Source: Marinobacterium marinum
GTDB taxonomy: Bacteria; Pseudomonadota; Gammaproteobacteria; Pseudomonadales; Balneatricaceae
Length of the DNA: 64,000 nucleotides
Assembly (NCBI RefSeq): GCF_013868415.1
Contig: NZ_JACEMT010000033.1
Span: 124,001 to 188,000, forward strand
Direction: 5' to 3'
Under the pieces are notes generated by a model that saw only the letters and a list, made by a program, of their open reading frames with translations, was not told the origin of the DNA and made no database searches. Within the stretch, counting starts at the first letter, position 1; the number at the start of each line of letters is the position of its first letter. Of this stretch, positions 46,782-64,000 are shown piece by piece. The translations under genes were made by a program, and so were the position numbers.

Positions 46782-46801
46782 GCCCCGCCTGACGGCGGGG
46801 C
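46782..46801 (-). terminator. Terminator of the iif-porin operon
   Basis: GCCCCGCC and GGCGGGGC form a perfect 8-bp GC stem with loop TGAC, 30 bases after the stop of the porin-like gene. On the minus strand it is followed by TTGTTG. It lies between convergent genes and may serve both. Confidence 0.65.
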
Positions 46802-46830
46802 ACAGGCGATAGCTCCCTCCAATGCAAATG

Positions 46831-47730
46831 TCAGAAAGGCAAAATGGCCTTGACCCAGAAGGCGTCGCCTTCGGGACGATTTTCCACCGCCATCTCTTTC
46901 TGGTATTTCAATGACAGGAAGAAACCCTTGCCGTTGTCGTATTTAATGGACGGGCCGATGGCGAACGCTTGTCCTTCATTGCCGATATCGACACCATTCA
47001 CTTCATCACCGGTAGTCTGCTTGTAGCCATACCCCCCAATCCCCACAACCCAATTGGGACTTACACCATAGCCGAGCGAATAGTCAAAGTGCAGCTCCTG
47101 ACCGGACTGGTAATTCGTATCATTGTTCTCGAAATTGTAGTCATACATCAGCTTGATGTCGGCGTTCCAACCGGTCGGGTTGACCCAGGACGCCGCATAG
47201 GCCGCCTGTACTCCCCAGTAGTTGCGACCAATATTGGCCATATCTTCAACATCATATTCACCCACGGGTATGAATACGTCCATTCCCACCACCGAGTGAA
47301 AGTTGGGATTATGATGGTACGCCAGAGCAAATGCGGTCAAATCAATGTCGCCCACCCCTCGATTACTGTCTCTCATACTGCCAACCGACACATCCATATC
47401 GACCAACGGCAGCAAGGCAGCATGAAACAGCTGTCCTCCGAACAGAGTGGTATCAGTCACCCAAACCAGGCGTGGCGCCACCACGTTGGCACGCAAACGG
47501 AAATCGATCGGCACACGGCTACCAGAGCCATCCATCAGATCGTCCGCTGCATACCGGTTGGCATAGAGCAACGAATAAACGCCGGGAGGTGGCAACGCGC
47601 CCATCAGGTAGTTTTCAGCTCCCATGGCGTAATTCGAGCCACCACCCTCGGTAGCCTGAGCTTCGCCGGGGACACACAATGCCATCACCATAGCCGATGC
47701 AGCACCGACCTTGTGGAAGAATTTCATCAT
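46831..47730 (-). CDS. MetA-pathway phenol-degradation-type outer membrane protein
   Basis: 299 residues. Signal peptide ends near QATEGG; the mature start GGSNYAMGAENYLMGALPPPG and repeated amphipathic strands ending with FWVKAILPF match the transporter family associated with meta-pathway phenol degradation. It should be an outer-membrane beta-barrel importing hydrophobic aromatics. It is the last gene of the iifABCD-like operon (65 bases after iifD) just before the terminator, so uptake of indole is a natural hypothesis. Confidence 0.82.
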   Translation of the reverse strand: MMKFFHKVGAASAMVMALCVPGEAQATEGGGSNYAMGAENYLMGALPPPGVYSLLYANRYAADDLMDGSGSRVPIDFRLRANVVAPRLVWVTDTTLFGGQLFHAALLPLVDMDVSVGSMRDSNRGVGDIDLTAFALAYHHNPNFHSVVGMDVFIPVGEYDVEDMANIGRNYWGVQAAYAASWVNPTGWNADIKLMYDYNFENNDTNYQSGQELHFDYSLGYGVSPNWVVGIGGYGYKQTTGDEVNGVDIGNEGQAFAIGPSIKYDNGKGFFLSLKYQKEMAVENRPEGDAFWVKAILPF

Positions 47731-47795
47731 CAGGCAAGTCCTGTGTTGTTCTTGTTATTGGCGCACCGCCCCGAGACAGGTGCGCATGAGCGGCT

Positions 47796-48335
47796 TCAGC
47801 TTTGCAGCTGGGCAAATGCTCCACGATAGAACAGCAGCGGCTCACTGGGGGAACTGTTCAGTGCATCGACACGTCCGACAATCAACAAGTGGTCTCCCAA
47901 GATGCGGGTGAACTCCACCGTACACTCAAGCTGAGCCTGGGCGCCCTCCAAAAGAGGGACCTGACGGTTATTGAGTCGATACTCAACACCCTCAAATTTA
48001 TCCTCCACGGGACGCGCAAATTGCATGGCCAGTGCTTCCTGTTGTTGCTGCAGGATATTGATCGCGAACGGTTTTCCCTCCTCAAATGCGCCACGATTTG
48101 GTGAACGCAGAGCCAGGCTCCACAATATAAGAGGCGGATCTAGCGACAGCGAAGAAAACGAGTTCGCCGTAATTCCTATGGGCAGATGATCTCCACCAGG
48201 CGCCGTTACCACCGTCACGCCAGTGGCAAATAGCCCCAGGGCATCACGCAACGCGCGAGGGTCGATTACGGGCGCAAGGCTTGCAGTCGCGGAGCATTTT
48301 TCCAGCGTCGTATGGGCTGTGGTCACATTTGTCAT
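47796..48335 (-). CDS. iifD: Flavin reductase component of indole monooxygenase (IifD-like)
   Basis: 179 residues of the StyB/HpaC flavin-reductase family: LRDALGLFATGVTVVTA, PIGITANSFSSLSLDPPLILWSL and FAINIL. It reduces FAD or FMN with NAD(P)H and supplies reduced flavin to the adjacent monooxygenase. AAGGAG lies 9 bases upstream; the start is one base after the iifC stop. The iifD name rests on the full operon match to the Acinetobacter iif cluster. Confidence 0.82.
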   Translation of the reverse strand: MTNVTTAHTTLEKCSATASLAPVIDPRALRDALGLFATGVTVVTAPGGDHLPIGITANSFSSLSLDPPLILWSLALRSPNRGAFEEGKPFAINILQQQQEALAMQFARPVEDKFEGVEYRLNNRQVPLLEGAQAQLECTVEFTRILGDHLLIVGRVDALNSSPSEPLLFYRGAFAQLQS

Positions 48336-48336
48336 G

Positions 48337-49581
48337 TCAAGCCGCTCCTTGTTGCATATGTGATTCGATTACACGACGGCAATCCTCTTCATCCAGCCAC
48401 CAAGGCATATAGTCCGGCGGATTGTCGAAACCGTTGGCAAGCAGAGAGGCCAGGGAATCAGATCCTTGAGCCGCGCCCATCAATTCCAGAATGTGCGGGG
48501 CTGGTGGCCGCAACATACTGTTGGTCCACGCCACAACCTGAGACGCATATTGCCAATAGGTTTCGAAAGTCTGCTGCATCCATTCTTCCGTGAATGGCTG
48601 GTCACCTCTCGCCAGAATTGCATCCAGATATACACGACTGCATTTGGCACTGTTGTTGGAACCCTGCCCGGTAATCGGATCATTAACCACCAGCGCATCG
48701 GCAATGCCCATCACCTTGCGGCCGGACGGCAGCGTCGCCACGGGTTTTCGAACTGTCGGCGGAAAGCGGCCTGCCAAAACACCGTTCTCATCCGTCAATT
48801 CAACCTGCTTGCAGCGCTCCGCCTCCCAAGGAGCATAGGTACTGATAATTTCCAGACTACGCTGCAAGTGTTCCTGCGGTGTGGTGACATCGCCCCAGCA
48901 ATCCATGGGGCCGCCGGGAATGCCTTCAAACACCATGATTTCGCAAGGGCCACTGAGAGTCAGGGCCGGGAAGACAAAGTATTCCCCCACACCCGGTATC
49001 AGATTGAAAGCCACGCGTGAATACGGTTCTTTCGGGGTCATTCCGTGTACATAGGTGAGCGCCAGTGCACGCTGCGGCTTGTCAAAGCACGAACGTTCTT
49101 CATCACGCTCGAACATGCGCACAATTTCGCCTTTGCCCGCGGCCACCAGTACCAACTCATAAGCAGCCGCCAACTCTTCCAATTCCTCAATGCCGACATC
49201 ACAGATTCTCAGATCGCCCCCCAGGCGTTCGAACTCATCCATCCAGCTTGGCATCTTGATGCGCTGGTCCACCGACAGAGCCTTGCTATCCAGTGGCGCC
49301 GCCCAGTCGATCAGCTTTTCACCCGGTTGCTCCAGATTGGGCACGGTGACACCTATCCCCTCAACAGGCGGGCAATCATGCTCCCAAAAATCAAGCCCCA
49401 AATCCCGCTCGGTCTGCAGAGAACGATCAAACATGCATTGGCTGGACATGACCTTGCCAGCACGAATCTGTTCACCTGTACGATTGGACAGGAGGGTGAC
49501 CTCATGGCCGGCCTTGAGCAGGCCAATGCCGGTTTGCAGGCCGGACTGGCCCGCGCCTACGATTGCAATTTTACGTGTCAT
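48337..49581 (-). CDS. iifC: Indole/styrene-type flavoprotein monooxygenase (IifC/StyA-like)
   Basis: 414 residues, group E flavin monooxygenase. N-terminal FAD motif IAIVGAGQSGLQTGIGLL, then RAGKVMSSQCMFDRSLQTERDLGL and GVTVPNLEQPG as in StyA. It epoxidises an aromatic vinyl or indole double bond using FADH2 from the reductase. Styrene genes styC/styD are absent and antABC follows in the island, so indole is the better substrate: IifC-type enzymes give indole-2,3-dihydrodiol. GGAG lies 7 bases before the ATG. Confidence 0.85.
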   Translation of the reverse strand: MTRKIAIVGAGQSGLQTGIGLLKAGHEVTLLSNRTGEQIRAGKVMSSQCMFDRSLQTERDLGLDFWEHDCPPVEGIGVTVPNLEQPGEKLIDWAAPLDSKALSVDQRIKMPSWMDEFERLGGDLRICDVGIEELEELAAAYELVLVAAGKGEIVRMFERDEERSCFDKPQRALALTYVHGMTPKEPYSRVAFNLIPGVGEYFVFPALTLSGPCEIMVFEGIPGGPMDCWGDVTTPQEHLQRSLEIISTYAPWEAERCKQVELTDENGVLAGRFPPTVRKPVATLPSGRKVMGIADALVVNDPITGQGSNNSAKCSRVYLDAILARGDQPFTEEWMQQTFETYWQYASQVVAWTNSMLRPPAPHILELMGAAQGSDSLASLLANGFDNPPDYMPWWLDEEDCRRVIESHMQQGAA

Positions 49582-49661: not shown

Positions 49662-50450
49662 TTACTCCGCCAGCTTGGGAATTGCGGGCTCCTTCTGCTC
49701 GGGCCCCAGCGCCGAGTAGCCGCCATCAACGGCATAGTCGGCACCGGTCACAAAGCTGGCTCGGGGCGAACAGAGAAATAGCACCACTTCGGCGACCTCT
49801 TCAGCCCCTCCCAGGCGTCCCAGCATGTGGAAAGGCGCGGCGACACGGTCAGCCTTGGCACGGTCACCACCGCTCACCTCCTCGATTACACGAGACCAGG
49901 TCCAGCCCGGGGAGACCGAATTTACGCGAATACCATCATCGGCGAAGTCCAGCGCCATGCTGCGGGTCAGGTGTTTGAGCGCAGCCTTGCTGGCGGGGTA
50001 TATCCAACGTCCCGTTTGGGCTGCCTGAGATGAAATGCTGGTGAAGTTGACGATCACCGCCCCTTCTTCCTGCGCCAGCAGGGGGCGCACGGTTCGAGCG
50101 GCCATCACCGCACTTACCACATTAATATCAAGCGCCTTGAGCCAGTCGGCACGGCCAGAGTCAGCCCCTTCATCCAGATAACTGCATGCAAGATTGACCA
50201 GGTAGTGCAGCCCCCCGAAATGCGCGGCGGTCTGGGCCACCGCTGCCTCCAGCTGGCTGTCGCTGGTAATGTCGGTTTCGATGAACAGCGCCGAAGCCCC
50301 CAATTGATCCGCCAGCTTGGCACCGGATGCCGCATCGATGTCGAGGATGGCGACCTTGGCGCCGCTGCGTACGAAAGCTTTCGCGACGGCCGCGCCGATC
50401 AGGGTGGAGCCTCCCGTAATCAAGGCAACACGATTGTTGAATTCACTCAT
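49662..50450 (-). CDS. iifB: Short-chain dehydrogenase (IifB-like dihydrodiol dehydrogenase)
   Basis: 262 residues from ATG 50450 (GAGG 8 bases upstream). Rossmann motif ALITGGSTLIG and catalytic Ser, Tyr151 and Lys155 (WIYPASKAALKH) are present. The structural NNAG motif is replaced by NLAC (residues 86-89). In the iif pathway this enzyme oxidises indole-2,3-dihydrodiol to 3-hydroxyindolin-2-one. It lies 10 bases after the iifA stop and 80 bases before iifC. Confidence 0.78.
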   Translation of the reverse strand: MSEFNNRVALITGGSTLIGAAVAKAFVRSGAKVAILDIDAASGAKLADQLGASALFIETDITSDSQLEAAVAQTAAHFGGLHYLVNLACSYLDEGADSGRADWLKALDINVVSAVMAARTVRPLLAQEEGAVIVNFTSISSQAAQTGRWIYPASKAALKHLTRSMALDFADDGIRVNSVSPGWTWSRVIEEVSGGDRAKADRVAAPFHMLGRLGGAEEVAEVVLFLCSPRASFVTGADYAVDGGYSALGPEQKEPAIPKLAE

Positions 50451-50460: not shown

Positions 50461-51696
50461 TCAATTCTTGTTTTCACTGTTGGGCCAGGTCGGCATCAAC
50501 GTATTGGACGGCAGGGTTTCATCGAGCAACTTGGCGGCGGTTTCACGCCCTGCTACAGGCAATCCCGTGGGGTCGAGCACCCCCAGCTGAACCAGAACCG
50601 AAGCCTGATCCCAGTAAATGTGTTCGTGATAGAGCTTGTCGCCCCGGAACTTGACCACAGCCAACAACGGAATTTCGACGTACTTGCCTGTAGGTGCAAT
50701 GCCGGGTACCAGCCAATCGATTTCACGGTCATGGGTAAAACAGAACAACAATTCGTCAACGATCTGGGTATCACCGATAGTGCGTGAAATCGGGATCAGA
50801 TGAGTGTCACCCGGGTTCACATCCACAAAGTGATGCTTGTAAAAGCGATACAGGTCCTTGTACCCCACCCCACCGGTCAGCGTAGGAATGTGATTGACGT
50901 AGGGCTCTGCCACCATGGTCGCCATGGTGTCCTCGACATTACGGGTATTAAATTCGTATTCGCAGTGCTTGTCCCATAGATGAGACAGGTTGTAGTCGGG
51001 ACCGATGGTTTTGCGCAGTACCGCCACCGAACGCTCATGTGCCATTAATGCTGACGGCTTGTGATAATGCTCCGATGCCGGGCGAGCGAAAGCGTGATCT
51101 ACGCCAGGATAGGTGTACAGCTCGACTTTCTCACGGGGTTCCAGTGCCGCATGAATATCATTGCGGGCAGCAGCCGGGCAGTACTCATCGTTTTCGGCAA
51201 AGTGAAGTACCAAACGGCCGCGAATGTTGTCGGCCTCGTCCAGGTGATTCTCAATCCCCATGCCGTAGTAGCCAACTGCAGCATCCACATCACAGCGACA
51301 TGCTGCCAGATAGGCCATACGCGCACCAAGACAGAAGCCCAGCACGCCAACCCCACCCGTAAACTCCTGGCGAGCTTTCAGGGCAGTAATGGCCGCATCA
51401 ATATCCTCAACGCCCTTGTCCTGATCAAACCCCTGATAAAAACCGAACGCTTTCTGCCAGGACGCCTCATCATAGTTCAACTCGACATTCGGCTCCTGAC
51501 GCCAAAACAGATCCGGCACCAGCACCAGGTAACCTTCTTCGGCGTAGTAATCCGCAATCTGACGCATGGTGCCGTTAACGCCAAAAATTTCCTGCAACAG
51601 GATCAGCCCTGGCCCTTCCCCCGAAGCAGGTACTGCCATATAAGCGCTGAATTTACCTGAACCGTCTTTTGCATCAACTTGAATCTGGATTCCCAT
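50461..51696 (-). CDS. iifA: Dienelactone hydrolase / SnoaL-like fusion protein (IifA-like)
   Basis: 411 residues with two domains. Residues 1 to about 235 are a dienelactone-hydrolase alpha/beta fold with Glu36 (LLQEIFGV), nucleophile Cys122 (GFCLGARMAY), Asp170 and His201 (PGVDHAFARP). Residues about 245-411 look like a SnoaL/NTF2-like domain (HWDKHCEYEFN-like start, IPLLAVVKFRGDKLYHEHIYWDQ). IifA is reported as a cofactor-independent enzyme converting 3-hydroxyindolin-2-one to anthranilate (recalled). First gene of the operon, AAGGAG 6 bases before the ATG. Confidence 0.78.
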   Translation of the reverse strand: MGIQIQVDAKDGSGKFSAYMAVPASGEGPGLILLQEIFGVNGTMRQIADYYAEEGYLVLVPDLFWRQEPNVELNYDEASWQKAFGFYQGFDQDKGVEDIDAAITALKARQEFTGGVGVLGFCLGARMAYLAACRCDVDAAVGYYGMGIENHLDEADNIRGRLVLHFAENDEYCPAAARNDIHAALEPREKVELYTYPGVDHAFARPASEHYHKPSALMAHERSVAVLRKTIGPDYNLSHLWDKHCEYEFNTRNVEDTMATMVAEPYVNHIPTLTGGVGYKDLYRFYKHHFVDVNPGDTHLIPISRTIGDTQIVDELLFCFTHDREIDWLVPGIAPTGKYVEIPLLAVVKFRGDKLYHEHIYWDQASVLVQLGVLDPTGLPVAGRETAAKLLDETLPSNTLMPTWPNSENKN

Positions 51697-51732
51697 GAGT
51701 GACTCCTTGTTATTATTCTCACGTTTCGTGAA

Positions 51733-51760
51733 TCCATACTATTTAAAAGCGTTTGGTCAA
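51733..51760 (-). promoter_or_regulatory. Candidate iifA promoter
   Basis: On the minus strand TTGACC (51760-51755) and TATGGA (51738-51733) are 16 bases apart, giving a transcript start near 51726 and a leader of about 30 bases to the iifA ATG. The XylS-like boxes lie 23 bases upstream. Confidence 0.4.
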
Positions 51761-51783
51761 TACGATCCGATCTCAGCAACCTC

Positions 51784-51829
51784 TATCCGGATAGTGCAGA
51801 AAAGTAAAACCACTTATCCACCTTCTGCG
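51784..51829 (-). promoter_or_regulatory. Tandem XylS-type boxes upstream of iifA
   Basis: Two direct copies on the minus strand of the XylS half-site form TGCA-N6-GGNTA: CGCA-GAAGGT-GGATA (51829-51815) and TGCA-CTATCC-GGATA (51798-51784), 31 bases apart, that is about three helical turns. They lie between iifA and the divergent AraC/XylS regulator, which probably binds them. Confidence 0.5.
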
Positions 51830-51915
51830 TTTACCTTGTATATAATGTTGCTACCCCCTACAGCAGACGCAGACTTATCTGTGGACTGATAAAAATAAGA
51901 AGGGAAGTAGCCCAA

Positions 51916-52926
51916 ATGTCAGTGAAAGAAAATCTTTCGCCTCTATTGGCGAATGCCTTGCTGGACCAGCCAGACAAACTGGTATTCAGCTGCGGCAGTG
52001 TGGAGGAGGTACAAGCCAAGGTCGGCACTGCTTTCAAGCCGCATCAATTTGTCCCGGCCCGACACACCGCGACGCTCAAGTCGCGCCTGCACCAATTCAC
52101 CATGGGCCAGGTTTCTTTTCACCGTTTGAAATACGGGGCCTCCGTCCAGGTTGACCCCGAATGTCTGGAAGACTTTTTCCTGATCCAAATGCCCGTCAGC
52201 GGGCTAGCAGAAATCAATTGTGGCGACTGTACGCTCACCACCAACTGCCGGCAGGGCGTCGTACTGAACCCCACTCAACGTCTGACCATGCGCTATGACA
52301 GCGAATGTGATCAATTGATGCTGCGCATCGATCGCCGCGAGCTGGAGCAGATCTGCAGTCGCTACTTGGGCCACAGCATTAAACACCCCGTAGAATTCAA
52401 CTGCCATTTGGACTGGCAAAATTCACCGGCCTGGATGCACATGCTGGAATACATCATGCAGATGCAAAAGGACCTGCCAGGCTGCCTGCAGCAGCCACTG
52501 ATTATCCGGCAACTGGAAGAGCTTGTAATCAGCACCCTGCTGAGTCAGCAGCCCAACAACTATTCGCTGGAACTGGCTGGCGGACAGCGCCCGCTGGCAC
52601 CACGCCACGTCAAACGGGTTGAGGAGTACATCGAAGCGCATGCGCAGGAGTCACTGTCACCGGCCATACTGGCTGAAATAGCCGGTGTCAGCGTACGCAC
52701 CCTCTATGCAGGGTTTCGTGAATTCAGGCATATGAGCCCAATGGAGTTTCTGCGCAGCATACGTCTGCAACGTATTCACCAGGCCCTGTCCAGACCTGAA
52801 CATCTGTCGTCCGTAACCGATACGGCCATGTACTGGGGGTTCTCCCACATGGGCCGTTTCAGTCAGGAATATCAGAAACTGTTTGGCGAAAAGCCAAGTG
52901 AAACCAGACGCAAGGCACACGCCTGA
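51916..52926 (+). CDS. iifR: AraC/XylS-family regulator of the indole operon (IifR-like)
   Basis: 336 residues; GGAAG lies 8 bases before the ATG. The N-terminal AraC_binding_2-type domain (about 30-200; FHRLKYGASVQVDPECLEDFFLIQMPVSG) is followed by two HTHs: SLSPAILAEIAGVSVRTLYAG and VTDTAMYWGFSHMGRFSQEY, ending KLFGEKPSETRR. XylS-type members activate aromatic catabolic operons on binding the pathway inducer. Divergent from iifA across 219 bases that contain the XylS-like boxes; a TATAAT at 51841-51846 may be its own -10. Confidence 0.82.
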   Translation: MSVKENLSPLLANALLDQPDKLVFSCGSVEEVQAKVGTAFKPHQFVPARHTATLKSRLHQFTMGQVSFHRLKYGASVQVDPECLEDFFLIQMPVSGLAEINCGDCTLTTNCRQGVVLNPTQRLTMRYDSECDQLMLRIDRRELEQICSRYLGHSIKHPVEFNCHLDWQNSPAWMHMLEYIMQMQKDLPGCLQQPLIIRQLEELVISTLLSQQPNNYSLELAGGQRPLAPRHVKRVEEYIEAHAQESLSPAILAEIAGVSVRTLYAGFREFRHMSPMEFLRSIRLQRIHQALSRPEHLSSVTDTAMYWGFSHMGRFSQEYQKLFGEKPSETRRKAHA

Positions 52927-52957: not shown

Positions 52958-54217
52958 TTAGAGCAGCATCAACACCAGCTGGGGGAAAGCACTTAACAGC
53001 ACCAGCGTCACCAAGGTCGCAAGCAGGAAAGGCAGTAAAGAACGAAAAATCTGCATGGGAGGAATCCCGGTCATGGAGGAACCGATAAACAACCCCGCAC
53101 CCACCGGTGGCGTAAGCAAACCGGTCACCAGTGTCAGGCAAACCACTACACCGAACTGATACGCTGATATATCGAACTGCTGTTGGGCAATAGGCAACAG
53201 GATTGGTACCACCAGAATCAGAGCGGCAATACCGTCAATGACCATACCGACCAGAATCAATACACCGACCACCATCAACATGAACATAAAGGGGTCCGAC
53301 GTCTGCTGGGCAATCCAGGCTGCCGCAGCCTGAGGAATCTGCTCGTAGACCACGACCCATCCGAACACGCCTGCAGCCGAAATCAGCATGATCACCATCC
53401 CCGCATTCAAGGCCGTACGGCGCAGGATTTCTGGCAAATGGGAAAACTTCAGATCCTTGTAGATGTACTTCCCGATCAGCAACGCGGCCAGAGATGCCAA
53501 AGCCGCTGACTCTGTCGGCGTCGCCAGACCGGTCAGGATACCGCCAATTATCACCATGGGAATCAGGCCTGCCGGCAGCCCCATCACCAAGTATTCTCGA
53601 CGCTTGGCACGGTCCGGCCACTCACCTTTCGGGTATTCCTGCACCAGGCCAATCACGGCAATAACAATAAAAAACAACAGCGACATGAGCAAACCCGGCA
53701 CAATGCCGGCGATGAACATTTCAGCAATCGGGATCTGTGCCAGCACACCAAAAAGTACGAATAGCATGGAAGGCGGAATAATGGGTGACAGCAGCCCGCC
53801 GGCCGACGTAATGGCGGCCGCATATGAACCGGAGTACCCTTCCTTCTCCATCGCCGGCACCATGGCACGGGACATGATGGCGATCTGTGATGCTGCCGAC
53901 CCCATGATCGCTGCCATCATCATATTGGCAACCAGGTTGATATAGGCCAGACCACCACGAAAGCCACCGACCAGAATCCGGGCCAGATTGATCAGGCGGC
54001 TGGTCAGCCCCCCTTCATTCATCAGTTCCCCCGTCAGCATGAACAAGGGAATTGCCAGCAGACCATAACTTTCAATGGCGCCAAATAGCTGCTGCGGGTA
54101 GGAATCAAACAGTACCGAGTTTCCCGAAGTCGCGATATACCACAACGCTGTTAAAGCCAAAACCAGTGCAATAGGGACACTGCAGAACAAGAGAATCAAG
54201 AAAACTGTAAACGTCAT
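52958..54217 (-). CDS. dctM: TRAP transporter large permease DctM
   Basis: 419 residues, about twelve membrane helices, beginning MTFTVFLILLFCSVPIAL. Signatures ESYGLLAIPLFMLTGELMNEGG and SAGGLLSPIIPPSMLFVLFG are typical of DctM permeases. It forms the channel of a periplasmic-binding-protein-dependent Na+ symporter. Its ATG overlaps the dctQ stop as ATGA; last gene of dctPQM. Confidence 0.92.
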   Translation of the reverse strand: MTFTVFLILLFCSVPIALVLALTALWYIATSGNSVLFDSYPQQLFGAIESYGLLAIPLFMLTGELMNEGGLTSRLINLARILVGGFRGGLAYINLVANMMMAAIMGSAASQIAIMSRAMVPAMEKEGYSGSYAAAITSAGGLLSPIIPPSMLFVLFGVLAQIPIAEMFIAGIVPGLLMSLLFFIVIAVIGLVQEYPKGEWPDRAKRREYLVMGLPAGLIPMVIIGGILTGLATPTESAALASLAALLIGKYIYKDLKFSHLPEILRRTALNAGMVIMLISAAGVFGWVVVYEQIPQAAAAWIAQQTSDPFMFMLMVVGVLILVGMVIDGIAALILVVPILLPIAQQQFDISAYQFGVVVCLTLVTGLLTPPVGAGLFIGSSMTGIPPMQIFRSLLPFLLATLVTLVLLSAFPQLVLMLL

Positions 54218-55802: not shown

Positions 55803-55991
55803 ATATAACTCCATTCACTCTATTATAATTTTTATACCGGTGAGCGTGATGCCGACCTGGCGCCGGACACGTCCAGACCTCCCTGATCCGGCAAGCCTTA
55901 TACCGCAGACGGTCCTGCTTCAGACTCCTTCCACAGCCGGTATTCAAGCGACCCGCCAATCAATTTGACAGTCCCTGAAGCCGCCAAAGTG

Positions 55992-56915
55992 CTAGGTCAA
56001 CGCAGTGAGAAAGCGCTCATTGAGCTGACGATCATGATAAAAGATTGCCTTGCCCAGCTTGTCGGCATCCCAAGTGATCGGCTCATGATCCGGGTAGAAA
56101 TAGTCACCGCCACAGAACACTTCGTTACGGTTTCCAGACGGGTCAAAGAAATATATCGTCTGACCGTGCGTAATACCATGCCGCGTAGGACCTATATCGA
56201 TAGATGTCTCGGTCATGGAGATCAGATCGCCTGCGCGCAGCACCTCTTCCCAGGTTTCCAGGAAAAATGAGGCATGGTGAAATTTGCCCGGTTCAGGATG
56301 ATCGATGAAAGCAATGTCATGTGCTTTCATACTGGCGGTCAGGAATTGAGCCACACGCTTGCCATCCGGCGTCATCACCTGTTCGCAGATATCAAAACCC
56401 AGCACCTCACGGAACAGCTCCAGTGTTTTGTCCAGCTCGGGCCCGTATAGCAAACAGTGATCAAAACGCTGTGCTTTCATGCCCTTGAGATCACGAGGCC
56501 AGGCTTCCGGGTTGTGATTACCGATGCCGTAGCGACCGGTCTGCTCTTTATCGGCATACAGCTCAAAGGCATGCCCGGTGGGTGCCTGAAAGCGGATACG
56601 GCGACCACAGCCTTCAAGCTCCCCGGCTGCAATCTGCTCCACTTCGCAGCCATGCTCGACCAACTCACCGTGGAGCTGTTCCAGAGTCGCTTCGTTGAGT
56701 ACCTTGAACCCCATGAAGTCCATACCGGGCCGATCGGCTTCACGCAGGACAACAGAGAAGCGGTCGACCTCGGTCCAGCCCTTCAGATAGACCCGTCCCA
56801 GGGTATCGCGGCCGACTTCGATCAGTCCCAGCAGGTCACGATAGTGAAGCAGTGCTTCGTCGATATCCAGGACACGAATCTGAACGTGTCCCGGGCGCAT
56901 TACACCTTTTTTCAT
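55992..56915 (-). CDS. xylE: Catechol 2,3-dioxygenase (XylE/DmpB type)
   Basis: 307 residues, the same length as Pseudomonas XylE and close to it throughout ([33 protein letters not shown]). Fe(II) ligands His153 (RFDHCLLYG), His214 ([10 protein letters not shown]) and Glu265 ([10 protein letters not shown]) are at the XylE positions. It cleaves catechol between C2 and C3 to 2-hydroxymuconic semialdehyde. It follows antC by 54 bases, so catechol formed from anthranilate passes straight into the meta pathway. Confidence 0.95.
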
Positions 56916-56969
56916 TGTGCTGATCTCATTGTTGTTATTGTGTTGGGTTACTGCTCAGCTGTTGTTGGC

Positions 56970-58001
56970 TCAGCTGGCGGAAAACTTTTCAAAGTAGATA
57001 TTGGCGTTTTCCATCTGGCGCTGATCGAGCCAGTTTTTCACCGCCTCAACCATCGGCGGCGGGCCACAGAGATAGGCATCCACCTCACCGGCGTTGAAAT
57101 GCTGCTCTTCAAACAGGTCGGTCACCACACCTTCCGGCCCTTGCCAGCTTTCATCTGGCTGCATCACGATGCTGTGGTAAGTGAAACTGGGAATCGCCTG
57201 CTGATAGCGGTCCAGGCGCTCCAGCTCGCAAAGGTCTTCCGGTTTGGTGACGCCGTAGAACAGGTTGACCGGCTGATCGATACGGCTCGGCTCGGACTCC
57301 ATCTGATCCAGCATGCCCAGAAATGCCGCCAGGCCGGTGCCGCCTGCGACCAGAATCAGCGGGCGCTTCACCTGCTGCAGATAAAAGGCCCCCAGCGGCG
57401 CCTTGAGACGAATGCTGTCACCGGGCTGGGCACGATCACGCAGGTAATTGCTCATCACCCCATCCGGCAACAAACGAATCAGCAGCTGCAGCTGATTGTT
57501 TTCGTTGGGCTGACAGGCAAAGGAATAAGAGCGCCACTCATCGGTACCGGGCACCTGCACATGGGCATACTGGCCCGGCAGGAAGTCCAGCTGCCCCTCA
57601 CGACCACTGGCATCCAGATGCAGGGTTGCGGTGGAGTCGGACAGGACTTCGACCCGGGTTACCACGGCCTCGACCTCTTCAGGTCCGGCACTGGTGCACA
57701 AAGTGGAGTCAAAATCGAAACGAACGGCACAGTCACTTTCGACCCGCATCTGACAGGCCAGAATACCGCCCTTTTCCAGGTCATCTTCACTCAGGGCATC
57801 TTCATCGACATATTCAAGATCATACTGGCCGGACTGGCAGGTGCCCTTGCAGGAGGCACAAACACCTTCACGGCAATCCACCGGCAACGTAAGGCCGTGA
57901 CGCAGAGCCGCGTCCATCAGGACTTCCCCCGGATTAATGCCGATAAAGTGGGTGCGTCCATCACTGAAGTTCAGTGCTACCTTATGCATACTACTCACCA
58001 T
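56970..58001 (-). CDS. antC: Anthranilate 1,2-dioxygenase reductase component AntC
   Basis: 343 residues (339 if started at Met5). Plant-type ferredoxin domain with Cys43, Cys48, Cys51 (DCREGVCASCKG) and Cys83, then FAD domain RSYSFACQPNE and NAD domain ILVAGGTGLAAFLGML. It transfers electrons from NADH to the AntAB oxygenase. BenC and XylZ have the same architecture; the AntC choice follows from AntA and the lack of benD. Gap to antB is 31 bases. Confidence 0.85.
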   Translation of the reverse strand: MVSSMHKVALNFSDGRTHFIGINPGEVLMDAALRHGLTLPVDCREGVCASCKGTCQSGQYDLEYVDEDALSEDDLEKGGILACQMRVESDCAVRFDFDSTLCTSAGPEEVEAVVTRVEVLSDSTATLHLDASGREGQLDFLPGQYAHVQVPGTDEWRSYSFACQPNENNQLQLLIRLLPDGVMSNYLRDRAQPGDSIRLKAPLGAFYLQQVKRPLILVAGGTGLAAFLGMLDQMESEPSRIDQPVNLFYGVTKPEDLCELERLDRYQQAIPSFTYHSIVMQPDESWQGPEGVVTDLFEEQHFNAGEVDAYLCGPPPMVEAVKNWLDQRQMENANIYFEKFSAS

Positions 58002-58032
58002 TGCTCACTCGTAAACGAGCACCCGAAGGTGC

Positions 58033-58521
58033 TCAGACGTGGTAGAAATCCAGCACATGGCGGATCTTGTCGTTCAGCACGATGGCGCGCTTACTCATGA
58101 TCTTCCAGCTGTTCCCGTCTTCACGCAGCTGGTACTCGGCCCAGCCGAAGAAGCACTCGGCTTCACCAAAACGGAAAAAGTGCGTGACCCAGTTGGCTTT
58201 CACTTGCCACAGGCCATCGTCCTGCTGTTCCGCCTGAACATTATCGATCAGGTGCATGGTGCGTGGCATGGGCGTACAGGCAGCACTTTTGCCGGTGCGA
58301 ATTCGGAACACACGGTCCTCAAGCCCGGCACGGGTCGGGTAATAGATCAGCGACATTTCGCGCTTGGGGTTGGTGGTGTACACATGCTCGCTGTCCCATT
58401 GAGGGATATGGAACAGGGACTCGGGGTCAAACATATCGAGATACTCATCCCACTGCTGACGGTCGCAGTACTCGGACGCACGGTACAGAAACTGCTCGAT
58501 GCTCTGGATAGTATTGCTCAT
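58033..58521 (-). CDS. antB: Anthranilate 1,2-dioxygenase small subunit AntB
   Basis: 162-residue beta subunit with the NTF2-like fold of ring-hydroxylating dioxygenases: EQFLYRASEYCDRQQWDEYL, PKREMSLIYYPTRAGLEDRVFR and the C-terminal RHVLDFYHV. It supports the alpha subunit hexamer and has no redox centre. It begins three bases after the antA stop, with GGAGG upstream. Confidence 0.88.
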   Translation of the reverse strand: MSNTIQSIEQFLYRASEYCDRQQWDEYLDMFDPESLFHIPQWDSEHVYTTNPKREMSLIYYPTRAGLEDRVFRIRTGKSAACTPMPRTMHLIDNVQAEQQDDGLWQVKANWVTHFFRFGEAECFFGWAEYQLREDGNSWKIMSKRAIVLNDKIRHVLDFYHV

Positions 58522-58524: not shown

Positions 58525-59910
58525 TTAACCCTCCTTCTTCGCTTTGGCTGCCAGACCTTCCAGCAGGTAGCGCTGCCAGGTAGAGTGCTGGTTTACATAC
58601 AGGCCTTCCTGAGTAAATTCGGTGCCGGTAATTACCGGTTCAATACCCAGCGCACGAGTATTGGCTGTAGCACCATAGGCCCAGTTTTCACAGCCACGGG
58701 AAATGTCATTCCAGCGCTCGGCCCGGCCTTCAAAGCCTTTCTGAGCCTCACGGAATTCCACCAGATCATCCGGGGTCCCCATGCCGGAGACGTTGAAGAA
58801 GTCCTCAAACTGACGAATGCGGTTTTCTCGATCGGCATCAGATTCGCCTTTCACGCCCAAACAAAAGCTGTGTACTTCGGTCTTGTTCCAGGCCACCGGG
58901 CGCACCACACGCAACTGGGAGCTGATCTGATCCATGAAAAACAGGCTCGGGTAAATATTCAGATTACGCAGGCGATGCATCATCCACTCGGCACGCTCCT
59001 GGCCATACTCTTCAACCAGGCGAGGCATAACGGAGGCATAGCCCGGACGCACTTCCGGGTTCGGCATGTCACTGAAAAGAATGGTATGACCGTTCTTGAA
59101 GGCAAACCAGCCATCGTCGGTTTCCTTGTCACCGGCACCGAGCTTACTGTAGTCCAGCGTTTTGCTGCCGCCGTCGGCTTTGGCCGCATCCTGCTGCTGA
59201 CGGTGCTGAACCGTGGCTACGTAGTTGTAGTGAACGGTGCTGACGTGGTAACCGTCGAGGCCGTTTTCGTTCTGCAGTTTCCAGTTACCGTCAAAGGTGT
59301 AGGAAGAGGAGCCCGGCAGGACTTCCAGCTCACCGGTGGGCGACTGAGCCGACATCATGTCGAAGGCGATACGGGCGTCACCCAGGAACTCCTCCAAAGA
59401 TTGGGTGCACTCGGTGTTCAGGTTGATGAACACAAACCCCTTGTAGCTGCTCACCAGCGCCTTGCGCAAGCCGCGGGTTGATTTGTCGAAGTCTGCCGGA
59501 TATTCATCAGGCGCCTTGACCTTCACCAGCTTGCCATCGGTCTTGTAGCACCATGCATGGAAGGGACAGGTAAAGGTGGACTGATTACCCTTGCACACAC
59601 GGGTCAGGGTGGCACCGCGATGCTGACAGGCATTCAACAGTGCGTTGATCTCGCCCTTGCCATCGCGGGTAATGATCATCGGCTGGCGACCCGCCTGCAT
59701 GGTGAAAAAATCGTGGTTGTTGGCAATCTGGCTTTCGTGGCAGGCGTAGATCCAGGTGTTCTCGAAAATCAGTTCCATTTCGAGGTCGAACAGCTCGGGG
59801 GCGGTGAAGATCTTGCGCGCTATCTTGTAGGTCTTCTCATCCGGGCGAAAGTCGAGGGCCGACTCAACGGTTTCACGCCAATGTTCCAGTGTCTGATTGT
59901 TATTGTTCAT
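58525..59910 (-). CDS. antA: Anthranilate 1,2-dioxygenase large subunit AntA
   Basis: 461 residues. Rieske centre Cys95-x-His97 (CQHRG) and Cys115-x2-His118 (CPFHAW); mononuclear iron ligands in ENGLDGYHVSTVHYNY (Asp219, His222, His227). The stretches FRPDEKTYKIARKIF, CPFHAWCYKTDGKLVKVKAP and LDYSKLGAGDKETDDGWFAF follow AntA rather than BenA, as recalled. It converts anthranilate to catechol, CO2 and ammonia, needing no diol dehydrogenase, in agreement with the missing benD. GGAG lies 7 bases before the ATG. Confidence 0.87.
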   Translation of the reverse strand: MNNNNQTLEHWRETVESALDFRPDEKTYKIARKIFTAPELFDLEMELIFENTWIYACHESQIANNHDFFTMQAGRQPMIITRDGKGEINALLNACQHRGATLTRVCKGNQSTFTCPFHAWCYKTDGKLVKVKAPDEYPADFDKSTRGLRKALVSSYKGFVFINLNTECTQSLEEFLGDARIAFDMMSAQSPTGELEVLPGSSSYTFDGNWKLQNENGLDGYHVSTVHYNYVATVQHRQQQDAAKADGGSKTLDYSKLGAGDKETDDGWFAFKNGHTILFSDMPNPEVRPGYASVMPRLVEEYGQERAEWMMHRLRNLNIYPSLFFMDQISSQLRVVRPVAWNKTEVHSFCLGVKGESDADRENRIRQFEDFFNVSGMGTPDDLVEFREAQKGFEGRAERWNDISRGCENWAYGATANTRALGIEPVITGTEFTQEGLYVNQHSTWQRYLLEGLAAKAKKEG

Positions 59911-59938
59911 ACTTGGTCTCCGTTAGCATCGGGCTGAT

Positions 59939-59967
59939 CATCTAGCCCTCCTCTCTTATCGTGCCAA
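59939..59967 (-). promoter_or_regulatory. Candidate antA promoter
   Basis: On the minus strand TTGGCA (59967-59962) and TAGATG (59944-59939) are 17 bases apart, placing the transcript start about 22 bases before the antA ATG. The -10 is a poor match, as expected of an activator-dependent promoter. Confidence 0.35.
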
Positions 59968-59996
59968 CCATGAAACCAGAGCTTGTAAGCCCCAGC

Positions 59997-60050
59997 TATC
60001 CGATTTTTCCTGAAGCGTTATCCCATTTTTAACCTTCGCCAAACCTATCC
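59997..60050 (-). promoter_or_regulatory. GGATA direct repeats between antA and its regulator
   Basis: On the minus strand AAAAATGGGATAAC (around 60019) and AAAAATCGGATAGC (around 59997) form an imperfect direct repeat with 22-base period, two helical turns; a third GGATA lies at 60050-60046. The GGATA core is shared with the boxes upstream of iifA and with the XylS half-site, so the AntR-like regulator is the likely binder. Confidence 0.45.
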
Positions 60051-60163
60051 CCACCCAATCGATAAAACATTGACCATTCATGACGGGTAGTGCTAATTTA
60101 AAAGGTGGATTAAGCCATGCCCCCTGGCCTGAACAGACAATAATAATTAAAAATGGTTATCCT

Positions 60164-61171
60164 ATGCTGGAAACAGACAGTCTTATCGATGATAAGCCTC
60201 CCAATAAGATCCTGGCTGACATACAGAATGCCAGCGATGCCATTTCATGGATGTCAAATATATGTGGCCCACATGACCTCAGGGTTCATGATGCACATAA
60301 AATGCATTTCAGACATGTCGGAAACATTCTCAACTCAACGACAACGGCTATCGGATATATTGAATACGGCACGGATGTAACCGTAAAAGTCGAAGACCTG
60401 AGCAACAGCTATAGCATCAGCCTTCCCCTCAGCGGATATCAGGAGCTGAGTTGTGCCGAAGGCAATGTTCAGTCCAATATCACCAGCGGTGTCATCATTT
60501 CACCTGCTGCACCCTACGAACTCAATATCAGCGGTAACTGTCGCAAGACCCTGGTACGTATTTCACGCCAGGCAATGAAAGTCGGACTTGAGGCGATGCT
60601 TGGCCGAATAACCGATAAGCCTCTGATTTTCGAAGCCAAAATGGACGCAAAAGTGGGCTCTTCCAGTGCCTGGTGGCGTACCATCCGCTACATAGAAAGC
60701 GAACTTGGCAACCCTGACAGCCTGTATAACAGCCCCGCTTTCATCCGCGACATTGAACAGGCACTGATCAAGGGAATCCTGACATCACAACCCCACAACT
60801 ACTCTGACGATGTCAAAAAAGCACTCAGAAACAACCTGCCCTCCTATCTGGTCAAAACGATTGATTATCTAAAGGAACATGCCAGAAATGATATTAACAT
60901 GGATGATATCGAGTGGATCTCAGGTGTTTCAAGAAATAAACTATATTCGGATTTCAAACGCCATATTGGCATTCCACCAACCGCCTACTTAAAGCGTATT
61001 CGAATGGAAGGAGTCCGTTCTGACATTATAAAACCAACAGGATCAGAAAATATTTCATCGATTGCACTAGGATGGGGGTTTACTCACCTTGGACGATTTT
61101 CAGCCGATTACAAAAAGTTTTTTGGTGAAACCCCGTCGGAAACACTTGCCAAGTCAAAAATAAATTTTTAA
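60164..61171 (+). CDS. antR: AraC/XylS-family regulator (AntR-like)
   Basis: 335 residues from ATG 60164, close in length to the iif regulator; the frame opens at 60080, and neither start has a clear ribosome site. N-terminal AraC_binding_2-like domain (AIGYIEYGTDVTVKVEDLSN, SLPLSGYQEL), C-terminal HTHs DINMDDIEWISGVSRNKLYSD and ISSIALGWGFTHLGRFSADY with GETPSET. It is divergent from antA and is the probable anthranilate-responsive activator. Visibly AT-rich compared with its neighbours, which suggests separate acquisition. Confidence 0.8.
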   Translation: MLETDSLIDDKPPNKILADIQNASDAISWMSNICGPHDLRVHDAHKMHFRHVGNILNSTTTAIGYIEYGTDVTVKVEDLSNSYSISLPLSGYQELSCAEGNVQSNITSGVIISPAAPYELNISGNCRKTLVRISRQAMKVGLEAMLGRITDKPLIFEAKMDAKVGSSSAWWRTIRYIESELGNPDSLYNSPAFIRDIEQALIKGILTSQPHNYSDDVKKALRNNLPSYLVKTIDYLKEHARNDINMDDIEWISGVSRNKLYSDFKRHIGIPPTAYLKRIRMEGVRSDIIKPTGSENISSIALGWGFTHLGRFSADYKKFFGETPSETLAKSKINF

Positions 61172-61214
61172 TTCATCATATAATCTCATAGAAGATTATC
61201 AGCTAAGAAACATC

Positions 61215-61240: not shown

Positions 61241-61284
61241 CAAGAGACGACAACGAAGGGTGAAACACAACTGAAAGGGCAGGA

Positions 61285-61476
61285 TCAGCGCCCCAATTTC
61301 TTGGCTGACTGCCCTCCTATGCCAAAATGCTGTTTGGGCATTTCATCAATCAGGACACGGACGCTTTCTTCCGGCGCATCGAGAGAACGGGCGATGGCCT
61401 GCGTCACTTCCTTGATCAGGTTCTCCTTTTGCTCATCCGAGCGGCCTTCCATGATGTGGATATTCGCGATCGGCAT
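61285..61476 (-). CDS. xylH: 4-oxalocrotonate tautomerase
   Basis: 63 residues from ATG 61476 (AGGAG 6 bases upstream); the longer frame to 61542 lies inside the decarboxylase gene. After Met removal Pro1 is the catalytic base, with Arg11, Arg39 and Phe50 at the canonical positions (EGR, SVR, HFG). It converts the 2-hydroxymuconate enol to the 2-oxo form. Last gene of the operon, 10 bases after the decarboxylase. Confidence 0.94.
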
Positions 61477-61486
61477 AACAGACTCC

Positions 61487-62293
61487 TCAGACGAACTTGC
61501 CGCTGATGCTGCCCAGGCCCTGGTAACGCACGGTGAAAGCATCGCCCTTGTTCACCTGTACCGCTGCGGTGATAGCACCGATCATGATGAATGAACCGGC
61601 CGGCAAGCTTTCGCCGCGCTCGCCCATCATATTCGCCAGCATGGCCACAGATGCCGCCGGATGCCCCAGTACCGCCGCACCGGCGCCAGTCTGTACCACT
61701 TCACCGTTGATCTCCATGACCACACCGATATTTTTCAGATCGATATCGGCAATATCCGCCATGTTGCCACCAGTCATGAAGCGGGTGGAGGACGAGTTAT
61801 CGGCGATCACGCTCTTGAGGTCGAACTTGAAGTCCTTGTAGCGAGAGTCGATCACTTCCACGGCCGGCATGACAAAATCGGTGGCACGCAGCACATCACC
61901 GATGTGTACGCCCGGACCTTTCAGCTCGTCTTTCAGTACGAACGCCAGTTCGGCTTCGATCTTCGGGTGGATCAGCTCATCATGCTTGATCTCACCACCT
62001 TCAGGCACACTGAAGTAGTCGGCCAGAAAACCGTAGCAAGGATGTTCGACACCCATCTGTGCCATCTTGGCCCAGGAGGTCAGACCCATTTTCATCCCGA
62101 CAATCTTGTGACCGCGTTCTTCCTTGCGGCGACGGATCTCCCACTGAATATCAAAGGCATCCTTGTAGGTCATCTGCGGGAAGTCATCGGTGATCTTGGT
62201 GATCTCGTAGGCTTCCAGCTCGGCGTTTTCACAATGGATCGCCAGCTCTTCAATCTGGGATTGAGTCAACTTGTTTTCGTACAGTTCAGCCAT
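61487..62293 (-). CDS. dmpH: 4-oxalocrotonate decarboxylase
   Basis: 268 residues. Very close to DmpH/Xyl[51 protein letters not shown]-like metal site and [18 protein letters not shown]. It decarboxylates 4-oxalocrotonate to 2-hydroxypenta-2,4-dienoate. The hydratase DmpE is a paralogue; the QWEIRRRK and [10 protein letters not shown] stretches favour the decarboxylase. Start overlaps the aldolase stop by one base. Confidence 0.9.
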
Positions 62294-63321
62294 TAGATCA
62301 GCCCCTTCTCTTTCGCCATGGTCAGTGCCAGGTCTTCAATCATGTCTTCCTGACCACCCACGGTACCGCGGCGACCAAGCTCTACCAGAATGTCACGGGC
62401 CTGGATGCCGTACTTCTTCTCCGCGCGCTGGGCAAACAGCAAGAAGGAAGAGTAGACACCGGCATAGCCCAGGGTCAGTGCATCGCGGTCCACTCGGATC
62501 GGCTGATCCATGATCGGGAATACGCGGTCTTCGGCCACATCCATAATCTTGTACAGATCGATACCGGTCTCGACGCCCATACGATCCAGCACGGCGCAGA
62601 ACACTTCCAGCGGCGTGTTGCCGGCACCGGCGCCCAAGCCTGCCACTGAGCCGTCGACACGGGCAGCACCGGCTTCAATCGCCGCCAGAGAGTTGGCAAT
62701 CGCCATGCCCATGTTGTGGTGGCCATGGAAGCCCACTTCCACGTTAGTCGGAAGCTCGGCACGCAGCAGGCCGATCTTGGCGGTCACTTCGTCCGGCAGC
62801 ATGTAACCGGCCGAATCCGTGGCGTAGATGCAGTTGGCGCCGTAGCTGACCATCAGTTTGGCCTGCTCCAGAATTGTTTCCGGGCTGACCATGTGGGCCA
62901 TCATCAGGAAGCCGACGGTGTCCATTTCCATCTTGGCGGCCATGCCGATATGCTGTTCGGAAACATCCGCTTCGGTACAGTGAGTGGCCACACGAATGGT
63001 GGAAACGCCGCAGTCTTTCGCCATTTTCAGGTGATCGACGGTACCGATACCCGGCAATAGCAGTGCGGAGACCTTGGCGTTTTTCATCTTCGGCACGACG
63101 GCGTTGAGGTATTCTTCATCGCTGTGCGCCGGGAAGCCGTAATTCACGGATGCACCGCCCAAACCGTCACCGTGGGTGACTTCGATCAGCGGCATGCCCG
63201 CTTCATCAAGGCCCGTGGCGATGTTGACCATCTCGTCCAGGCTGATCTGGTGACGCTTGGCGTGCATGCCGTCACGCAGAGACATGTCGTGCAGGGTTAC
63301 TTTTTTTCCATTCAGGTTCAT
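62293..63321 (-). CDS. dmpG: 4-hydroxy-2-oxovalerate aldolase
   Basis: 342 residues, DmpG/MhpE family TIM barrel. Active-site Arg16-Asp17 and His20 ([11 protein letters not shown]); metal ligands His199 and His201 (GFHGHHNMG). It splits 4-hydroxy-2-oxovalerate into pyruvate and acetaldehyde, channelled to the partner dehydrogenase. GAGGAGG lies 7 bases before the ATG, inside the small upstream reading frame whose TGA overlaps this ATG. Confidence 0.95.
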
Positions 63322-63422
63322 TGTGCAACCTCCTCGGCCTGCACGCCAAAGGCGTGCATACGCTTATTCCGTACGGACAGACTCATACCGTGCAGCGTGA
63401 CTTTCTTACCGTTCAGATTCAT
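63318..63422 (-). pseudogene. Truncated duplicate of the aldolase N-terminus (34-codon ORF)
   Basis: Between the dehydrogenase stop and the aldolase start lies a reading frame with GGAGG 8 bases before its ATG (63422). Its first 15 residues, [15 protein letters not shown], match the aldolase start [15 protein letters not shown] with one change, but the codons differ at several third positions. The sequence then diverges ([19 protein letters not shown]) and stops at TGA, overlapping the aldolase ATG as ATGA. It looks like a decayed second copy of the gene start that may still be translated and couple translation. Confidence 0.7.
63340..63358. repeat. 8-bp inverted repeat in front of the aldolase gene
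   Basis: TGCACGCC, loop AAA, GGCGTGCA: a perfect 8-bp stem inside the remnant ORF, ending 19 bases before the aldolase ATG and just upstream of its ribosome-binding site. No T-tract follows, so it is more likely an mRNA stability or translation element, or a by-product of the duplication, than a terminator. Confidence 0.5.
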
Positions 63423-63436
63423 TGTCATTTCCTCCG

Positions 63437-64000
63437 TTAGCCACGCTCAGGCAGGGTGATGGCGCCGTTGGCCGCTTCTTCAGCGAACATCTCGGCAGTG
63501 CGCAGACCGGCCGCAGTCATGATGTCCAGGTTGCCGGCATACTTGGGCAGGAAGTCGCCCAGGCCTTCCACTTCCATGAAGCAGGAGACACGGTTGCCAT
63601 CGAACACAGGGCCGTTCACCAGACGGTAGCCCGGTACGTACTTCTGCACGTCCTTCACCATGGCATGCACGGATTCGGTGATGGCGGCCTGATCCGGCTC
63701 GCCTTCGGTCAGGCAGTGAATGGTGTCACGCATGATCAGCGGCGGCTCGGCCGGGTTGATGATGATGATCGCCTTGCCTTTCTTGGCGCCGCCCACTTTC
63801 TCCACAGCGCCAGCCGTGGTGCGGGTGAATTCGTCGATGTTCTGACGTGTGCCCGGACCGACAGAACGAGACGATACCGTCGCAATGATTTCACCGTACT
63901 CAACCGGCTGTACGCGCGACACGGCCGCTACCATCGGGATGGTCGCCTGGCCACCACAGGTCACCATGTTGACGTTCATCTCCAGGTTCTTGGCATGATC
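63437..64000 (-). CDS. dmpF: Acetaldehyde dehydrogenase (acylating), partial
   Basis: C-terminal 187 residues; the gene continues past base 64000. Visible parts are [18 protein letters not shown] with the catalytic Cys of Dmp[21 protein letters not shown], and [17 protein letters not shown]. It oxidises acetaldehyde from the aldolase to acetyl-CoA with NAD+ and CoA. It is 14 bases before the remnant ORF and 115 before the aldolase. The N-terminal NAD domain is outside the window. Confidence 0.93.

Follow-up and report, generated by a model that had tools for sequence, protein, structure and literature searches.

Indole is both a bacterial signal and a pollutant, and the fate of anthranilate in its degradation has been named as an open question (PMC6221969). 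The iif clusters described in Acinetobacter baumannii ATCC 19606 (PMC4577076) and Acinetobacter sp. O153 (Sadauskas 2017, via PMC6221969) consist of the five genes iifABCDE and the regulatory gene iifR. A more extensive arrangement, the WHOP region (dhoAB, ipoABC, whpR, antABC, antR and catBCA), is presented in the main text of PMC12538310, where an integrated cluster using the ortho route is proposed for Pseudomonas savastanoi. According to that text, antABC and antR are found in most WHOP-like clusters, catBCA occurs in those of the P. syringae complex, P. oryzihabitans, one more Pseudomonas and most Acinetobacter, and Marinobacterium spp. make up cluster 12; linkage of iif and antABC genes is already known and common, Marinobacterium included. 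Here we analyze a 64,000-nucleotide stretch of the Marinobacterium marinum genome (hereafter, the window; positions 124001-188000 of contig C20, which extends 13.2 kb beyond it, in a 3.28 Mb genome) that carries iif and ant genes together with a catechol 2,3-dioxygenase (C23O) gene, TRAP transporter genes and a dmp-type meta-cleavage operon.

From the identities of the genes, their order and their phyletic pattern, presented below, we infer that the locus is very probably an indole and anthranilate catabolic cluster with three probable transcription units, all on the minus strand. The first (iifA-B-C-D-E, 51696 down to 46831), with its regulator IifR, would oxidize indole through IifC and IifD and convert the product to anthranilate through IifB and then IifA, with IifE acting as an outer-membrane channel. 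The second (antA-B-C, C23O and TRAP P-Q-M, 59910 down to 52958), with its regulator AntR, would turn anthranilate, whether it comes from the first unit or enters the cell through the TRAP system, into catechol and open the ring by meta cleavage. The third (dmpC-E-F-G-H-I, 66634 down to 61285, where positions past 64000 are window-equivalent coordinates on the same contig) would convert the resulting 2-hydroxymuconic semialdehyde to pyruvate and acetyl-CoA, and would serve as a hub also used by further aromatic modules of the genome, each with a C23O of its own. Two AraC/XylS genes are present, one divergent from iifA and the other from antA. All genes named in a preliminary description of the window were confirmed as open reading frames at the positions it gave, and its central observation, the co-location of an iif operon, antABC, meta-cleavage genes, two AraC/XylS-type regulators, an outer-membrane channel and a TRAP importer, is borne out by open reading frames and model scores alike. 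The iif-ant-C23O-TRAP arrangement is undescribed among the titles and abstract openings listed by our literature searches, whose coverage left out most subscription papers, and the main text of PMC12538310, figures and tables aside, contains none of the terms "catechol 2", "TRAP" and "extradiol".

Gene identities and the predicted route from indole

The assignment of the upper pathway depends mainly on iifC (48337..49581), predicted to encode a group E indole monooxygenase with a Smoa_sbd domain (PF17885). Its product matched structures 7z4x and 9lrq with 632.7 and 630.1 bits, compared with 199.3 bits for 9j0h and 115.4 bits for the styrene monooxygenase 3ihm, such that the indole-type structures outscore StyA 3ihm more than five-fold. 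IifC is 66.5% identical to 9lrq (266 of 400 columns), whose chain contains all three A. baumannii IifC primer peptides that were compared. 7z4x is probably VpIndA1. The VpIndA1 structure paper is cited in PMC13101512, in which the indole fingerprint is given as S46-Q48-M50-V/I73-I76-A96. Five of these six residues are present in IifC at the published numbers (S46, Q48, M50, V73 and I76). Position 96 is proline, not alanine, and alanines are located at 94 and 95, as they are in 7z4x, which aligns to IifC without gaps in this part.

The remaining iif genes are adjacent to and collinear with iifC. iifA (50461..51696) encodes a dienelactone-hydrolase part (DLH PF01738, 153.6 bits) followed by a C-terminal SnoaL-like part (19.9 bits, below the cut-off of 28.4); the dienelactone-hydrolase domain and the length of ~410 aa match the published architecture. 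IifA is presumed to be the cofactor-independent oxygenase that produces anthranilate. iifB (49662..50450; ATG at 50450, with an alternative GTG at 50477 possible) encodes a short-chain dehydrogenase (adh_short_C2, 198.9 bits), iifD (47796..48335) a flavin reductase predicted to feed IifC (Flavin_Reduct PF01613, 127.2 bits), and iifE (46831..47730), the final gene of the operon as in A. baumannii, an outer-membrane channel (Phenol_MetA_deg PF13557, 237.6 bits). Nine peptides derived from A. baumannii primers were compared with the window proteins, in frames picked by best fit, which favours matches: three were complete (LDPTGLPV in the C-terminal part of IifA, 8/8; GIRVNSV in IifB, 7/7; SLSLDPP in IifD, 7/7), five were partial (4/7 to 5/6) and one, the IifB forward peptide, failed (3/8). 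A search with IifA in a 369-genome sample of the class matched 19 places, distributed over 17 genomes and full length at just three (the window's own included), and was dropped as a survey. At nine of those places (L013, L015-L020, L023 and L025), homologues of the C-terminal part of IifA, 44-61% identical, occur as separate frames of ~180-220 aa.

Could the iif genes instead encode another flavoprotein pathway, such as styrene, skatole or cyclic alcohol oxidation, and lie beside antABC by chance? IifC is related to StyA, and IifA-E reach no iif-specific profile model, none being available to pass, so the operon was assigned through Pfam domains, solved monooxygenases and the primer peptides. 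However, the score of IifC with the StyA equivalog NF045732 (194.4 bits) misses the cut-off of 550, the styrene fingerprint N46-V48-H50 is replaced by S46-Q48-M50, and skatole monooxygenases are reported to be without the indole fingerprint, as far as PMC13101512 describes them. Furthermore, among 116 genomes of the family, AntA and IifC are each found in 17 (counting IifC at >=74% identity, that is, leaving out weaker matches of 53% in G411 and 29% in G384) and co-occur in 16. A different pathway is therefore hardly credible for the operon, and a styrene or skatole identity for IifC itself is rejected by scores and fingerprint. Grouping with styrene enzymes had been named beforehand as the outcome that would overturn the indole assignment; by the sequence comparisons above, IifC is a member of the indole branch, not the styrene type, and the operon is predicted to convert indole to anthranilate.

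AntA (antA, 58525..59910; large subunit), AntB (antB, 58033..58521; small subunit) and AntC (antC, 56970..58001; reductase) of anthranilate 1,2-dioxygenase all score above curated NCBIfam equivalog cut-offs (TIGR03228, 865.7 vs 671.9; TIGR03231, 232.1 vs 213.5; NF008822, 511.4 vs 402), whereas the benzoate model TIGR03229 gave AntA 507.9, below its cut-off of 780.95. Collinear with antABC is the C23O gene (55992..56915; TIGR03211, 437.4 vs 320.2), the product of which has the three motifs that we take to be metal-ligand motifs.

The lower pathway begins beyond the window. Semialdehyde dehydrogenase and dienoate hydratase genes had been sought past position 64000, and both are there: dmpC (65174-66634; TIGR03216, 845.0 vs 693.25) and dmpE (64379-65167; TIGR03220, 447.0 vs 408.8). 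dmpF, encoding an acylating acetaldehyde dehydrogenase (63437..64000, continuing to 64348; TIGR03215, 474.0 vs 282.25), is interrupted by the window end and intact on the contig, where dmpF-dmpE-dmpC correspond to L004:3437-6634. dmpG (4-hydroxy-2-oxovalerate aldolase, 62293..63321; TIGR03217, 552.7 vs 286) and dmpH (2-oxo-3-hexenedioate decarboxylase, 61487..62293; TIGR03218, 484.8 vs 350.55) follow. Absent from the preliminary description and detected with a lower size limit is the last gene, dmpI/xylH (61285..61476), encoding a 4-oxalocrotonate tautomerase of 63 aa; translation could also begin further upstream, at 61542, and the resulting 85-aa frame scored 96.0 with TIGR00013 (cut-off 56.9) and 87.4 with NF002524 (cut-off 86). 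The tautomerase has Pro1, Arg11, Arg39 and Phe50, which we presume to be its functional residues. The meta-cleavage set (C23O, semialdehyde dehydrogenase, tautomerase, decarboxylase, hydratase, aldolase and acetaldehyde dehydrogenase) is whole. No step between indole and the end products pyruvate and acetyl-CoA lacks a gene, and the predicted chain, near-complete in the preliminary description, is complete.

The dmp and xyl operons are the standard form of meta-cleavage operon, and the window and its contig have their full set, C23O and DmpC, I, H, E, G and F; unlike in those operons, the C23O gene sits in the ant operon and the remainder forms one operon common to other C23O genes. The five iif genes are in the same order as in both Acinetobacter clusters, with matching domains (in Acinetobacter, IifA is a dienelactone hydrolase of 416 aa, IifB a short-chain dehydrogenase and IifE a Phenol_MetA protein, alongside IifC and IifD) and a similar AraC/XylS-type regulator. 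Unlike in Acinetobacter, the regulatory gene here lies upstream of the operon and is transcribed away from it, the placement known from P. syringae pv. actinidiae (PMC4577076), and the ant-C23O-TRAP and dmp genes are additional. The window has the same upper genes as the WHOP region of PMC12538310, as well as antABC and AntR; counterparts of whpR, dhoAB and ipoAB, by which WHOP-like clusters are recognized, and of antABC, which is usual in them, were identified through homology to iif and ant genes. It differs from the P. syringae WHOP region in having C23O and a shared dmp operon instead of catBCA, and in its TRAP transporter.

Conservation of the cluster and its ring-cleavage genes

We compared the locus with a genus sample of eight genomes, the window's own included (M. 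stanieri, G006; M. sediminicola, G005; M. halophilum, G002), and with the 116 family genomes (among them M. lacunae, G406; M. ramblicola, G410; M. zhoushanense, G413). IifC is encoded in five of the eight genus genomes, all five of which retain the order iifEDCBA-IifR-TRAP-C23O-antCBA-AntR. Because the order from iifE to AntR is identical in the four other IifC-bearing genomes, its genes have not come to lie together by chance. The dmp operon comes after AntR in three genomes, those of the window, G003 and M. stanieri. Of the 17 AntA-positive family genomes, eight (the five of the genus, M. lacunae, M. ramblicola and M. zhoushanense) have a C23O at most ~3 kb from AntA. G400 has IifC without AntA, and its 4752-bp contig (L067) carries a truncated antA. 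Some species named Marinobacterium lie outside the window's genus and have other arrangements; in M. profundum (L063), which belongs to a different genus of the family, iif adjoins AntR and antABC, but C23O is absent.

A scan of named genomes with two peptide patterns returned 69 loci, none from Acinetobacter, and is not a census; flanks stop at 10 kb, some clipped by contig ends, and iifABCD presence was scored by identity thresholds chosen in this analysis. Within 10 kb of the 28 loci with iifABCD, we found iifE in 27, antA and antB in 23, TrapP in 11, catechol 1,2-dioxygenase in nine, 3-hydroxyanthranilate 3,4-dioxygenase in one, and C23O in four (M. stanieri, M. sediminicola, M. halophilum and M. 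lacunae). The supposition in the preliminary description that known iif clusters cover the upper part only is not supported, given these counts for antA, antB and catechol 1,2-dioxygenase and the antABC linkage published in PMC12538310.

The Halomonas beimenensis locus reads iif, AntR, antABC, catB, catC, catA and TRAP (catB, 499.9 vs cut-off 334.95; catC, 154.6 vs 130.6; catA, 479.9 vs 392), with a TRAP binding protein 61% identical to that of the window. The Halomonas loci L057, L058, L059, L071 and L080 have iif, antABC and TRAP, with TrapP 60-63% identical, but contain a catBCA ortho cassette where the window has C23O; CatA and TRAP are also present at a further locus, L056. Between antC and the TRAP genes, therefore, a single C23O gene appears to occupy the position of catBCA, a ring-cleavage cassette exchange that looks new. 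Exchange at one site would make this a clean case of modular pathway assembly. The locus also provides a marine lineage for which full indole degradation by meta cleavage is predicted from one stretch of DNA, and the gene order offers a definite, testable answer to the question of anthranilate fate. In Burkholderia sp. OK233 (L072:7852-20021), a LysR-like gene comes after iifABCD, and then homologues of dmpC-E-F-G-H and genes for a Rid-like protein (71.5 bits, below the cut-off of 106.25) and 3-hydroxyanthranilate 3,4-dioxygenase, with no antABC nearby, an alternative coupling of iif to ring cleavage.

Extradiol dioxygenases accept several catechols, and the ant-linked C23O might act on another substrate while catechol from anthranilate is cut by an ortho enzyme encoded elsewhere. 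However, the catechol 1,2-dioxygenase model (TIGR02439) gave no match at E 0.001 in any of the eight genus genomes (catB and catC were not searched genome-wide) and none above cut-off in the eight family genomes with ant-linked C23O, yet it was found above cut-off in eight other genomes of the family, including four of the other nine AntA-positive ones (G395, G397, G399 and G471). Although unusual intradiol enzymes could escape the model, we regard an ortho enzyme elsewhere as very unlikely and retain meta cleavage by the linked C23O.

The TRAP importer and upstream regions

DctP, DctQ and DctM subunits are all encoded (TrapP, 54816..55814, PF03480; small membrane subunit, 54214..54762, PF04290; large membrane subunit, 52958..54217, PF06808, 327.1 bits). 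TrapP, probably a binding protein for aromatic carboxylates, matched a single sequence solved three times (4paf, 4pai and 4pbh) with 401.9 bits, the next match scoring 125; 4paf is SPO1773 of Ruegeria pomeroyi. The predicted structure of TrapP had a mean pLDDT of 66.8, with one of its domains poorly modelled, and was used solely for naming 4paf. TRAP binding proteins are limited to carboxylates via a conserved arginine (PMC4646407), and degradation of benzoate derivatives involves TRAP systems (PMC5812351), as summarized in those sources. Because TrapP resembles SPO1773, and because anthranilate is a carboxylate and indole is neutral, anthranilate is the likelier cargo; we favour it, with some reserve, as the main substrate, and the system as a candidate anthranilate importer. 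Import of indole was judged unlikely given the carboxylate selectivity and the closest structures.

The locus could be primarily an anthranilate-scavenging island, with the TRAP system bringing the main substrate from outside and iif forming a detoxification side branch, a reading that departs from ours solely in the choice of main substrate. TRAP, C23O and antABC are collinear and close, TrapP resembles SPO1773, whose ligands are probably aromatic acids, and work on the A. baumannii iif operon emphasizes indole detoxification (PMC4577076). Against scavenging as the main role are the iif-ant linkage at 23 of the 28 named iifABCD loci and the rarity in the family of AntA without IifC (G471 only, 1 of 17). 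We consider this alternative possible but rather unlikely.

The IifR/WhpR-like gene (51916..52926, plus strand; AraC_binding_2 and HTH_18 domains) and the AntR-like gene (60080..61171, plus strand) are divergent from iifA and antA, respectively, and the AntR-like gene is at the same place in all five iif-positive genus genomes. XylS sites are described as TGCA-N6-GGNTA repeats (PMC5481539, PMC1360089). The region between iifA and iifR (51697..51915) contains a XylS-like half-site that matches the consensus, TGCACTATCCGGATA (51784-51798, minus strand); at this position a TGCACTATnnGGATAG-like half-site is aligned in 7/7 upstream regions, three with variation. Because the window contains four XylS-consensus matches and 2.14 are expected, the consensus alone is not significant, and such matches were discarded as stand-alone evidence; a search for the spaced double-site XylS pattern gave no match. 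Between antA and antR (59911..60079), a GGATA box occurs at -113 and again, 22 bp on, at -91 relative to the antA ATG; both boxes are preceded by A-rich sequence, and the pair aligns in 5/5 genus genomes. P. fluorescens AntR is described as a divergent activator of an anthranilate-induced operon, with a promoter lacking the XylS consensus, and the differing GGATA box here agrees with that description. A separate block upstream of dmpC is conserved in five of five genomes; a XylS-like match before dmpC, on the opposite strand and within chance, was set aside. The conserved upstream boxes may be operators. WhpR is reported as a repressor of most WHOP operons, and activation through IifR is reported for the A. 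baumannii iif operon (PMC4577076).

A shared lower operon and C23O paralogues

Several observations weigh against the proposed three-unit cluster. In two of the five iif-positive genus genomes, M. sediminicola and M. halophilum, the dmp operon is elsewhere (dmpC ~62 kb from antA and on a separate contig, respectively), and its closeness to the other units here may therefore be a coincidence. The ant-C23O block is retained in M. zhoushanense and M. ramblicola, yet several kb farther from iif. In a sister genus, four genomes with AntA (G376, G378, G386 and G390) have three to five unlinked C23O genes each, none by ant, and no catechol 1,2-dioxygenase, and the AntA-positive G401 has neither enzyme above cut-off; a linked ring-cleavage gene is thus dispensable for ant. 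Within the second unit, C23O and TRAP P are separated by 177 bp, enough room for a promoter. Neither AraC/XylS regulator reaches a named equivalog cut-off, the best model for both being AndR (NF041686; 198.9 bits for the IifR-like and 130.9 for the AntR-like protein, cut-off 350). Finally, benzoate-type aromatic acids are only the probable ligands of 4paf, 4pai and 4pbh (SPO1773). In the four sister-genus genomes, antA is ~1.6 kb from iifC.

DmpC above cut-off is single in six of the eight genus genomes, with two copies in G004 and none in G007, whereas seven of the eight have three to five C23O matches above cut-off each; those of the window genome are a single intact gene plus four fragments located where contigs end. 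This difference in copy number points to the dmp operon as a shared hub. A dedicated indole function for it is rejected given its mostly single copy, its presence in the iif-negative G001 and G004 and its distance from iif in two iif-positive genomes. The preliminary description of an integrated indole unit thus stands for the co-location of all parts, but not for the lower meta operon, which is shared and not indole-dedicated, nor for the TRAP system, for which anthranilate is the likelier substrate. These features would fit a plug-in design, in which upper pathways carry their own C23O adapter into one shared meta operon, the adapters are homogenized by gene conversion, the indole module was fitted by a swap of ortho cassette for adapter, and an importer dedicated to anthranilate, the TRAP system, is coupled to an indole route; we offer this scheme tentatively, as somewhat less likely to hold in full than to fail in one of its parts.

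Other modules with their own C23O are apparent in the genus. In G002, G005 and G006, one additional C23O adjoins AntABC homologues that are 37-49% identical, probably a benzoate dioxygenase. On the window's contig, a second aromatic module (L004:10613-17245) comprises a TRAP system, a class II aldolase, a TauD-type dioxygenase, a flavin reductase and a C23O cut at the contig end. Contigs C20, C24 and C23 of this genome all terminate within C23O; the final 821 bases of C20 are the initial 821 bases of C24 (L004:16425-17245 and L120:1-821), which holds that sequence twice, and the assembly breaks there. In trees of C23O half-genes, which left out the G005 copy beside AntABC homologues and the G003 copies elsewhere on the chromosome, the six ant-linked copies separated from all others in their first halves (split support 0.993), and some second halves clustered by genome (the M. 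sediminicola ant copy with its other copy, 0.959; an M. stanieri pair, 0.960). Because C23O copies occupy neighbourhoods that recur among species, the data suggest gene conversion among C23O paralogues of several Marinobacterium species.

Exchange between species is also suggested for the ant block. Over 55992-58521, DNA identity to M. stanieri (L044) is 90.0% for C23O, 94.0% for antC and 92.6% for antB, compared with 79.0-83.2% for the same genes in three other species. Other genes of the window are 83-86% (TRAP), 70-84% (iif and iifR) and 88-92.5% (dmp; 83-91% in the others) identical to those of M. stanieri. The higher identity over the ant block points to its having been exchanged recently.

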